A stretch of 50,089 bases of DNA from Lachnospiraceae bacterium. Lineage in GTDB: Bacteria; Bacillota; Clostridia; Lachnospirales; Lachnospiraceae. The stretch's first letter is position 1. The number at the start of each line of letters is the position of its first letter. Positions 20,657-23,581 of this stretch are shown here, one piece after another. The notes under the pieces are model-generated. The model did no database searches. It was not told where the DNA came from and was given only the letters and a program-made list of their open reading frames with translations. A program made the position numbers and the translations under genes. The DNA lies in contig JAFSCH010000024.1 in assembly GCA_017436865.1 (NCBI GenBank), positions 1-50,089 of the forward strand, written 5' to 3'.

Positions 20657-20841
20657 ATTGCTCTCCTATTTGCTATCCTTAGCTTTTTTACTTCGTGTCC
20701 ATACAAAATATATATCGGCTGATTTCGAAGTTTTCATTATAAATAAATGGGTAAATTCAAGTTTAGTGAGCCATGCACAGATGAGCCGAATTGGCTGCGG
20801 GAGCTTGCTCACAGGCACACATATTCGAGCGAGGCTATTTT
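20657..20841. other. Left part of the 1.1 kb gene-free block
   Basis: The stretch before the tandem array has no credible coding frame. It contains short inverted repeats such as AGCC/GGCT and GAGC/GCTC near 20780-20812, and must also hold the promoter of the minus-strand orphan gene. Confidence 0.4.
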
Positions 20842-21149
20842 CCCGACTGCTAGGACGTAATTCTTGTTCCGGTCGGGATGATTAACACTATTTACCCCGA
20901 CTGCTAGGACGCAATCCTTGTTCCGGTCGGGATGATTAACACTATTTACCCCGACTGCTAGGACGCAATCCTTGTTCCGGTGGGATGATTAACACTATTT
21001 ACCCCGACTGCTAGGACGCAATCCTTGTTCCGGTTGGGATGATTAACACTATTTACCCCGACTGCTAGGACGCAATCCTTGTTCCGGTCGGGATGATTAA
21101 TACTATTTACCCCGACCGATATAGCAAATGGTATACTTCGGTCGGGATA
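20842..21149. repeat. 54-bp tandem hairpin array, five units plus a variant unit
   Basis: Units begin with CCCGACTGCTAGGACG at 20842, 20896, 20950, 21003 and 21057. Spacing is 54 bases except 53 after the third, which has lost one C. Each unit ends its hairpin with GGTCGGG, so CCCGAC pairs with GTCGGG inside a unit, and the same GTCGGG can also pair with the next unit's CCCGAC. A sixth, variant hairpin at 21111-21146 has perfect CCCGACCG/CGGTCGGG arms but a different centre. There is no variable spacer, so it is not a CRISPR array. Confidence 0.95.
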
Positions 21150-21336
21150 ACTGCTAGTATTACAGTCCTTCAAGATACAAAACTTTATGAATTCATGGTA
21201 CAGTAGCCGACTTAGGCGGTATATGTTTCTATTTTTGGTCTAGAAATAGTTTTTCTCTCTGATACCCAATTTGCAATTGCCTAGAATTTATCAAGTTTTT
21301 TACTTAGTGAAGTGTAATAATTTACTAGGTTCTTAT

Positions 21337-21696
21337 TCACAACCTTGACTGCACTCCTTCAAAACTTGGAGCAAAGCGAATGAATGTGCTGAAAATGCTT
21401 TAGAGCGGTTTGTGCTATTTCCTTAATGGAACAAGGAGGCATGAAGTCCTGCTTGAAGAACTGTCTGAGCACTGCGTTAGCAGGGCGAGTTTGCGTGTTA
21501 GCAATGAGCCAAACAAGACTGCTTGCAGGCTTACTTGGCGAATGCCACGATAGTGCGCTTGCGCAACTATGCGGAGAGCAGGACTAATAAAGAATGCCGA
21601 ACGCTCCATTTAGGAAATACCAAACAAGCGGGTTTGCATTTGAGGCATATTCATTTGCTATACACAATGTCAAAAAAGGAGTGCTCACAACCTTGA
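21337..21696. ncRNA. Candidate structured RNA or fold-back element
   Basis: No coding frame is credible here, but collinear complementary segments nest one inside another: 21351-21359 with 21676-21684; 21379-21388 with 21646-21655; 21393-21398 with 21636-21641; 21408-21412 with 21621-21625; 21417-21430 with 21605-21618 (13 of 14 paired); 21438-21442 with 21594-21598; 21445-21452 with 21578-21585. A hairpin at 21550-21570 and a small CTGC/GCAG one lie in the centre. TCACAACCTTGA occurs at both ends (21337-21348 and 21685-21696). It may be a folded RNA or an inverted-repeat transposable element; transcription is unproven. Confidence 0.55.
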
Positions 21697-21723
21697 ATAC
21701 TACTCCACTAAACCTGAATTTAC

Positions 21724-21749
21724 AAAAAAGCTCCTCCCGGAGCTTTTTT
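21724..21749. terminator. Strong bidirectional terminator
   Basis: AAAAAAGCTCC pairs perfectly with GGAGCTTTTTT around a four-base loop. It ends the ushA-like gene on the minus strand and would also end any plus-strand transcript of the fold-back element. Confidence 0.9.
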
Positions 21750-21759
21750 CTGTATCGCA

Positions 21760-23394
21760 CTATTTAATTGTGATATTTCCTTTTGGTGTAGCATAATCAT
21801 CTCCAATCATGCCATTTAAAGAATTTACATAAGAGATAAGACCTTCTGCATCAACAACACCTGTATTTATCACCTTTGATGCCTTTGTAAATACATAATA
21901 GGTATCTCCACCATCTGCCATAAAGTTATTTACTGCAAGGTTATAGGTTGCATTCTTATCAAACTTCTTACCTCCTACTGTTTCAATGTTTACACGGCTA
22001 CCTGGATTAGCTGGCGCATAATAAGTAGAATCAGGATACTGTTCTCCCTGTTCATACGGAACCGATGTATCAAGCGTAAACTTAATACCAGAAACCTGTG
22101 GAAATCCTCCAAGTGCATCCGGACAAGCAGAACAAGAAGCCTCTAATGCTTCTAACAACTCTGCGCCAGATACTGTTACAATAGAAATGGTATTACCATA
22201 TGGAAATACAGTATATAAAGTATCCATAGAAATATCTCCCGCTTCAATCGTAGCTCTGATACCACCACCATTTTGTACTGCACCATCAATTGTCATATCA
22301 AGTCCATTTTCTGCAACGTATGTCTCAGCAGTATATTTATAAGCATCTGCTGAAAAATCACCAAGATTTGTCTCCTGTGTTCGAACACCCGGACTTCGCT
22401 GTCCATTAAGCTGATTCATTGTCGTTGCAAAAGTACCTGCATATGCTTCATCCACTACCTTATCAAAGCTTGCAACAAACTCGTCCATGGATGGACATCC
22501 ACCAACATGATACAAATCATTTACAAGCGTTGCCTTTGTATTCTTTCCATCATATACAACAACACCAATATTATTCAGATACTCACCTGTACTTACAATC
22601 TTTGTTCCATTATAATCCATACCTTCTGATAACTGTGTATGACTATGTCCATCCACAAACAAATCAATTCCATCTACTGTATTTAATACATCAAACGAAC
22701 GTTTTCCTTCACTCTCTGCATCCTGTCCAAGATGTCCAATACAAATAATATAATCACAATCCTGATCTTCCAAAAAGTCAACCTGTGCCTGCGCACAAGC
22801 ATACAATTCAGCACCATCAAGAAATGTAACGTCCTTTACATTTTTAGGGTTAGACTTTGTCTGTGTCTCTGGAGTATCAAGTCCAAACACACCAACCTTC
22901 ATATCATCAAAATAAAAGATTTCATTATCATCAAGATAAGGTAAACCCGTTTCCTTACTAATGATATTTGCATCCAAAATCGTGAAATTGGCTACATCTG
23001 TCATTGCTCTTAACGACTCTAAGCCAAAATCAAATTCATGATTACCAAGGGAAACTGCATCATAACCTGCTGCATTCATAAAATAGACAGAATTTAAACC
23101 TTTATAATAGTTTACAAGATTCGTTCCTTGCGAAAAATCACCTGCATCTAATAGCAATACATTTGCACCAAGCTTCTCATAATATCCCTTCAGTGCTGCT
23201 ACTGAAGACATACCCAAGCTCCCTTCCTCTGTATTCTTCTCAAAACGCCCATGCATATCATTGGTATGGATTACTACAAGTTTTCCTGACATATCTGCTG
23301 CTTCTACAATACTTACCGGAGTATATACCGATAATCCAAGTACCATTGCAAGACTTAATCCACCACCAATAAACTTATTCATTAATTTGTTCAT
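21760..23394 (-). CDS. Secreted 5'-nucleotidase / metallophosphatase, UshA-like
   Basis: A 544-residue exported enzyme with a signal peptide (about 1-34, ending VEAA). The N-terminal calcineurin-type phosphatase domain shows VVIHTNDMHGRF, LLLDAGDFSQGTN, SLGNHEFDFG, IGHLG and VDGHSHTQL, all metal-binding blocks intact. The C-terminal 5'-nucleotidase domain (about 330-540) has QNGGGIRATI, VFPYGNTISIVTVSG and MADGGDTYYVF. It probably dephosphorylates extracellular nucleotides. No sortase signal is present, so it is released or loosely held. ATG 23394 is chosen for AAGGAGG six bases upstream. It is a single-gene unit. Confidence 0.9.
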   Translation of the reverse strand: MNKLMNKFIGGGLSLAMVLGLSVYTPVSIVEAADMSGKLVVIHTNDMHGRFEKNTEEGSLGMSSVAALKGYYEKLGANVLLLDAGDFSQGTNLVNYYKGLNSVYFMNAAGYDAVSLGNHEFDFGLESLRAMTDVANFTILDANIISKETGLPYLDDNEIFYFDDMKVGVFGLDTPETQTKSNPKNVKDVTFLDGAELYACAQAQVDFLEDQDCDYIICIGHLGQDAESEGKRSFDVLNTVDGIDLFVDGHSHTQLSEGMDYNGTKIVSTGEYLNNIGVVVYDGKNTKATLVNDLYHVGGCPSMDEFVASFDKVVDEAYAGTFATTMNQLNGQRSPGVRTQETNLGDFSADAYKYTAETYVAENGLDMTIDGAVQNGGGIRATIEAGDISMDTLYTVFPYGNTISIVTVSGAELLEALEASCSACPDALGGFPQVSGIKFTLDTSVPYEQGEQYPDSTYYAPANPGSRVNIETVGGKKFDKNATYNLAVNNFMADGGDTYYVFTKASKVINTGVVDAEGLISYVNSLNGMIGDDYATPKGNITIK

Positions 23395-23581
23395 ATAGTG
23401 CCTCCTTCGCATTTTATAAATTGACATTACTTGCCTATCTATTCTGATAATCTTATGTTACGGTTAGCCAGTGATTATGTCAACCAATTTTATGTTCTTT
23501 ACTTATTTTTTACACAATTTAAAGTTGCACCAAAAAACGTCATTGCACGTTTTTCTTTGCTTGCAATGACGTTTTTCCTCT

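Follow-up and report, generated by a model that had tools for sequence, protein, structure and literature searches.

Transposons are as a rule recognized by their conserved ends, the middle being variable, and conserved ends are likewise typical of MITEs. Among the smaller elements, the Correia/NEMIS MITEs are short, non-coding, inverted-repeat elements located between genes, and the BOX elements of pneumococcus are mosaics in which end modules enclose a tandemly repeated middle one; they are not known to contain a conserved-tip hairpin core. Nested palindromes, or double-hairpin elements, occur in fungal and algal mitochondria. REPINs are miniature, non-autonomous mobile hairpin DNAs that are extragenic, present in many copies, and keep their palindromes through sequence changes (PMC3116915, PMC2817692), and the REP palindromes carry a GT(A/G)G head (PMC2817692).

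The fold-back considered here lies in a window of 50,089 nucleotides (the whole stretch of DNA analysed) from a Lachnospiraceae draft genome of 4.2 Mb in 169 contigs, with a completeness of 99.7 and a contamination of 7.7, and is probably a non-autonomous, non-coding fold-back transposable element, one of a large set of hairpins, present in many gut Lachnospiraceae and some other bacteria, most of which have a conserved tip in common while their stems vary freely. It resembles REPINs in being a non-autonomous, extragenic, multi-copy hairpin whose palindrome is kept through changes; it differs in having 200-300 nt, a conserved tip, and a free stem, in the 8-10-bp target duplications of one genus, and in that the Y1 transposases of its own genome are not flanked by family sequence, as those of a REPIN/RAYT system would be. 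With the Correia/NEMIS elements it shares the short, intergenic, inverted-repeat form, here with target-site duplications in relatives, but its stem is copy-specific and its centre conserved, which is the reverse of the usual MITE. Compared by layout only, BOX elements are alike in their mosaic of end modules with a tandem middle, whereas the conserved-tip hairpin core belongs to the present element. The likeness to mitochondrial double-hairpin elements is that of a hairpin inserted in a hairpin; the present element, however, is bacterial and far longer, and has a shared tip and target-site duplications.

At the window locus, a first-pass annotation had described a large nested fold-back in a gene-free block, and RNA folding bears this out: nested pairs are recovered from about 21340 to 21695 on both strands, the helix that joins 21417-21430 to 21605-21618 is present in the minimum-energy structure, and the plus strand folds at -147.8 kcal/mol, where shuffled sequences average -107.4 (z -6.88, reached by 0 of 100), and the minus strand gives z -5.92. 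The perfect terminator placed just beyond it was also found (Table 1). The 12-bp TCACAACCTTGA said to stand at both ends is present in exact copies at 21337-21348 and 21685-21696, but its proposed role as a mark of insertion did not hold: since diverged versions lie inside the elements of other copies, with homology continuing past them, these repeats are not an insertion footprint, and a target duplication is ruled out for a repeat that is internal to arm X. The statement that no coding frame is plausible stands with the qualification that a 64-aa reading frame lies inside (21415-21609), which is taken to be spurious. Because a pair of 17-bp inverted repeats brackets the fold-back, the element is larger than the range first reported and forms a mosaic, whose parts are collected in Table 1. 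Rfam returned no match at gathering score in the window, with two weak sub-threshold matches near the fold-back, and none at gathering score at 18 loci, most of which carry tip hairpins.

Table 1. Parts of the mosaic element and adjoining features in the window (CM, covariance model)
Feature	Position	Strand	Basis or remark
Whole mosaic element, 971 bp	20752-21722		Bounded by 17-bp inverted repeats TAAATTCARGTTTAGTG
Left terminal inverted repeat TAAATTCAAGTTTAGTG	20752-20768	+	Repeat search, letters checked
Multi-hairpin end-module fragment GAGCCATGC...	20769-20841	+	By eye; fuller version in other copies (L106, L107)
Tandem array of 53-54-bp units	20842-21121	+	Repeat search; homologous stretch in C3, C78
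Outer arm X, left side	21337-21400	+	P1 homology with other outer arms begins at 21401
P1 core hairpin	21401-21630	- (tip-sense)	17-copy alignment, covariation, CM match 21402-21633 (-)
Conserved tip AAACTCGC-CCTGCTAACGCAGT-GCTCAGACA	21462-21492	-	Pattern survey, letters checked
Module E, 78-bp, REP-like	21496-21573	+	Present in 3 of the 17 aligned P1 copies
Outer arm X, right side, and short link to terminal repeat	21631-21705	+	Locus comparison
Right terminal inverted repeat TAAATTCAGGTTTAGTG	21706-21722	-	Repeat search, letters checked
Perfect terminator hairpin	21724-21749		Sequence and 11-bp fold; 3′ end of neighbouring gene, outside element
Neighbouring gene, presumably a 5′-nucleotidase (read from sequence)	21760-23427	-	Terminator 21724-21749 at its 3′ end

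The tandem array comprises five units, each with a CCCGAC...GTCGGG hairpin recognized by eye, and similar arrays occur in other mosaic copies. The end module GAGCCATGC...GCATGGCTC, which adjoins the terminal repeat, contains several internal hairpins and looks cloverleaf-like by eye; it was seen at L107 1366-1660, L106 ~1585-1725, and L095 ~1555-1690, and has no Rfam match at these three loci. Repeated GGACATA...ATGTCC words make up another module adjoining the fold-back, in the right flanks of L003, L018, and L002. Among seven loci compared with Rfam, a TwoAYGGAY RNA (100 bits) was matched at L097 1699-1865, minus strand, in genome G010; it stands close to a family end module and is considered unrelated to the hairpin.

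The homologue search proposed in the first-pass annotation revealed a dispersed, multi-copy sequence, with 35 matches to the fold-back in its own genome, some of them parts of one copy. The mosaic end sequence, with up to two mismatches, has 40 matches there against 3 for a backward control, and 28 of the 40 lie no more than 600 bp from a contig end, so the mosaic repeats evidently break the assembly. Two 59-bp solo hairpins are built of mosaic ends alone. The mosaic was matched in 12 of 38 genomes of the genus, its own included (E <= 0.001). The phage and plasmid collections searched with the window element gave no match, and the viral contigs none to a 19-base P1 pattern; a longer tip pattern was found in one viral contig (L325).

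The core hairpin, P1, could be aligned in 17 full copies, three of which, the window copy among them, contain module E. In the 14 E-less copies, RNAalifold predicted 38 pairs, and 15 of these have changes on both sides, against a mean of 6.9 in shuffles, none of 500 of which reached that number in a control that leaves the relatedness of the copies in place; slid controls gave 0 to 3. Paired cells amount to 96.8% (90.7% in shuffles), and further pair types number 22, no more than shuffles give. Compensatory change, which the first-pass annotation had proposed to look for, is thus observed in P1.

P1 sits in different outer arms, X and Y, with the same two breakpoints: in copies with other outer arms (e.g., L018, L019, L063, L093, and L143) it starts at 21401 (query position 65) and ends at 21628-21630 (query 292-294), and in the fold each breakpoint lies close to the base that pairs with the other (21402 pairs with 21635, and 21408 with 21629). 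The swap of outer arms is not always paired, as one copy (C22, L003) combines arm X and arm Y on opposite sides. Between locus L123 of the MAG RGIG2054 (JAFQQI010000068.1, positions 1-1349) and the own-genome contig C87, the flanks are identical at 1159 of 1180 positions (98%) up to the element end, and inside the element arm X stands against arm Y; L123 may have been transferred or misbinned, since RGIG2054 is otherwise distant from the own genome (67% in an enolase-like region). Downstream of the same neighbouring gene as in the window, the related MAG RGIG3133 (L160) has another family member with different inner arms right after the terminator, and SUG387 (L161) has neither the end sequence nor the tip within the stretch examined. 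From these comparisons it follows that modules have been exchanged at fixed sites, or that sites have been refilled; exchange at a fixed site is seen near the own genome.

Module E adjoins the tip, with TGCG before it (21492-21495) and TGCG as its own end (21570-21573), and in E-less P1 copies the sequence runs straight through this site. The fold-back was matched in 17 of 397 family genomes, 14 of them through the E region only and three (G000, which is the own genome, G180, and G101) through P1; the E-like loci read, among L144-L159, have no P1 alongside. Several genomes have P1 lacking E, and E is also found where there is no P1; insertion of E into P1 is therefore the simpler reading, an E-less state produced by deletion between the TGCG words being possible. 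Module E is itself a REP-like hairpin, GCAATGAGCCAA...TTTGGCGAATGCC, which is present in many Lachnospiraceae genera and is often accompanied by a second hairpin. The impression that part of the centre recalls intergenic sequence of other Lachnospiraceae was right, both for module E in the family genomes and for the tip in the survey described below.

Judged by sequence comparison, P1 belongs to a much larger set of mostly intergenic hairpins of 200-300 nt. A covariance model (CM) built from the 14 E-less copies matched the own genome 17 times at E <= 0.01 (one match being the reverse-strand counterpart of another) and recovered B-type hairpins of that genome that were absent from training. 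Under strict filters, with seven candidates scored per genome, it matched 14 of 397 family genomes, and a deeper search at E <= 0.1 matched 10 of 13 chosen genomes, with 58, 38, and 32 matches in G052, G376, and G101, respectively, a few of which are both-strand matches of one place. The majority of the distant copies read have unrelated stems and the same tip, AAACTCGC-(mini-hairpin)-GCTCARACA, in either orientation. None of the 32 CM matches in G101 is matched by the tip pattern, and the loci checked there lack the tip; since the G101 copies, together with L193, have the P1 layout with another tip, the tip can be exchanged with no loss of the bulged stem. About 30 copies of this form occur in G101 (L186, L198, L205, and L217).

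Of 397 family genomes, 55, representing 52 of the 334 genera, contain the tip pattern when no mismatch is allowed, with 337 matches against 5 for the backward control and up to 61 per genome. Among the distinct tips at the family loci that were fetched, a selection weighted towards copy-rich genomes, 62 of 70 are flanked by long complementary arms (median extent 118 nt); random positions in these loci gave 52 of 2000. Of these 62 tip hairpins, 7 lie mostly inside an ORF of at least 120 aa, against 952 of 1240 random placements. In a phylum sample, 27 of 398 genomes (three of them of the own family) gave 153 matches against 6 for the backward control; some of these matches are due to chance, because only 8 of 19 distinct tips there pass the hairpin-arm test. 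Some matches there have no hairpin arms; those at L315-L317 look like conserved coding sequence. A second site, CTAA[AG], precedes the tip by 30-75 nt in 64 of 103 distinct hairpins; 33 of the 103 also have TTA[AG]G after the tip, a combination for which shuffles predict 0.6. The second site is missing from the hairpins of G228, G318, and G355. Both tests cover tips at least 150 nt from a locus end, and the second-site test covers those with arms. In its simplest form, CAAACTCGCTTCGCTCAAAC, the tip is a mirror repeat that reads the same backwards (e.g., L246 1501-1520, minus strand). Beyond the phylum, the tip recurs together with a CTAAATG site between two genes of the Ilyobacter polytropus plasmid NC_014633.1 (Fusobacteriota). 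The plasmid was matched at four places at E <= 0.001; at the one that was read, the hairpin was judged by eye because its best arm alignment did not start beside the tip. An unverified phage contig from human faeces, MT837089.1 (L327), carries a tip hairpin at about 1470-1695 with arms of about 90 nt, which stands shortly after an apparent stop codon. Matches of 21 bases in plasmids of Listeria and Fusobacterium (E 3) were taken as chance.

The stems are best followed in the genus g47 (genomes G397 and G083). In the distal stems of 17 copies, 1009 of 1029 aligned positions are Watson-Crick (98%), with 4 G.T and 13 A.C, and the two arms within a copy are 95% identical on average and 87% at the lowest, gaps counted. 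Between copies, identity is 66% for the same distal arm and 91% for the tip-proximal domain, the middle 46 nt are 61% identical, against 56% in shuffles, and arms are more than 80% alike in only 6 of 136 pairs of copies. Nearly every copy therefore has its own self-complementary stem, as the arms match within and not between copies. This bears on the alternative, likewise raised by the first-pass annotation, of a structured RNA: a long hairpin, perhaps an RNase III substrate or a regulator, that is kept by selection on pairing and whose dispersion is secondary. Such an RNA would account for the compensatory changes with conserved internal loops, and on the tip-sense strand across all groups G.T exceeds A.C by 348 to 249, a tally that leans towards RNA, although its cells share ancestry and hence are not independent, include the conserved domain, and come from arms scoring at least 22. 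In RNA stems, however, more wobbles would be expected than the distal stems of g47 contain, and this lack suggests that the arms are corrected or copied as DNA and not selected as an RNA; the target-site duplications of g47 and the lack of an Rfam family also speak against the RNA, which we regard as improbable. The transposon half of the first-pass proposal is largely borne out by a dispersed, multi-copy hairpin whose distant relatives have target-site duplications, and RNA selection as the main cause is hard to square with the scarcity of wobble in g47.

Movement itself can be read from the ends of the hairpins. In g47, most copies read end in GTWACNGTTCA, and in 9 of 17 the arm ends are flanked by direct repeats of 8-10 bp, which partner-swapped controls show in 6 of 300 cases; imperfect repeats are visible by eye at some of the remainder. 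Together with the copy-specific stems, these duplications show that the hairpins transposed in this genus. The same test, applied to arms scoring at least 25, away from locus ends, and after removal of 8 duplicate loci, found such repeats in 2 of 10 copies in G228 and in 0 of 33 in all other groups tested. Read by eye, the window element (at most a TA) and the complete own-genome copies have no 8-9-bp duplication.

A second alternative is that the hairpin is a MITE of a known insertion sequence family and shares its ends. The element is short, non-coding, dispersed, and multi-copy, as a MITE is, terminal inverted repeats are present in the window element and in the g47 hairpins, and 8-10-bp duplications accompany the latter; the TA ends of the window element may be taken as IS630/Tc1-mariner-like and the 8-bp duplication in g47 as IS66-like. 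The hairpin end sequences, however, differ between genera, and the GTWACNGTTCA ends are absent from all 8 g47 IS66 loci read (of 10 found), 6 of which have GTAAGCG, GTAAG being what we take to mark IS66; IS66 was accordingly rejected as the mover in g47. The own genome has four Y1_Tnp matches with no significant family match in the flanks examined, and IS200-type Y1 transposases were set aside as movers there. A search of the Y1 family in this draft genome likewise showed no transposase with TAAATTCARGTTTAG ends, and at the loci read no autonomous element sharing the hairpin ends was found. Taken together, derivation from a known family is unlikely.

Pure Russian-doll growth, in which unrelated palindromes are inserted into the centres of others and the tip has no conserved function, would explain why module E sits in P1 and P1 in arms X and Y, and also, by eye, P1 with Y-like arms within the tip of a B-type hairpin in SUG387, but it is very unlikely, because nesting alone is insufficient where g47 has full-length hairpins that carry the conserved tip but contain no nested module, because it does not predict the one tip, in 52 of 334 family genera, or the layout (by eye) that P1 and B have in common, and because the empty hairpin in L035 is also explicable as a deletion between short direct repeats.

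For the fold-back transposable element that we favour, the following steps can be proposed. A host or transposon protein would recognize the tip and the nearby bulges and move the hairpin, and the arms would be kept complementary at the DNA level by template switching, hairpin repair, or copying via a one-armed intermediate. In the own genome, the hairpin now forms part of larger mosaics, bounded by TAAATTCARGTTTAG, that exchange modules from copy to copy. Several findings weigh against this reading: no 8-9-bp duplication at the window element or the own-genome copies read, clear duplications in one genus only, the other tip of the G101 copies, the unpaired outer arms of C22, no autonomous partner at the loci read, the excess of G.T over A.C across all groups, and the 8 of 19 phylum tips that pass the arm test. 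More speculatively, and with clear reservation, the family might represent a new class of element that moves as a hairpin, its tip recognized by a protein, with a one-armed snap-back intermediate and arms that template each other; if true, this would explain the near-perfect, copy-specific stems, the conservation of the centre and not of the ends, and the spread over the phylum and the Fusobacteriota.

No description of the motif or of such Lachnospiraceae hairpins was found in the (mainly open) literature searched, nor a name in Rfam, so far as this widespread family is concerned. The mosaics break assemblies and, since they show covariation, could be taken for RNA genes. In this family it is the middle, the tip, that is conserved, and the stems drift between copies and remain self-complementary within each. 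If it moves as a hairpin, the family would provide a natural model of how a hairpin templates its own copying and how its arms are corrected.
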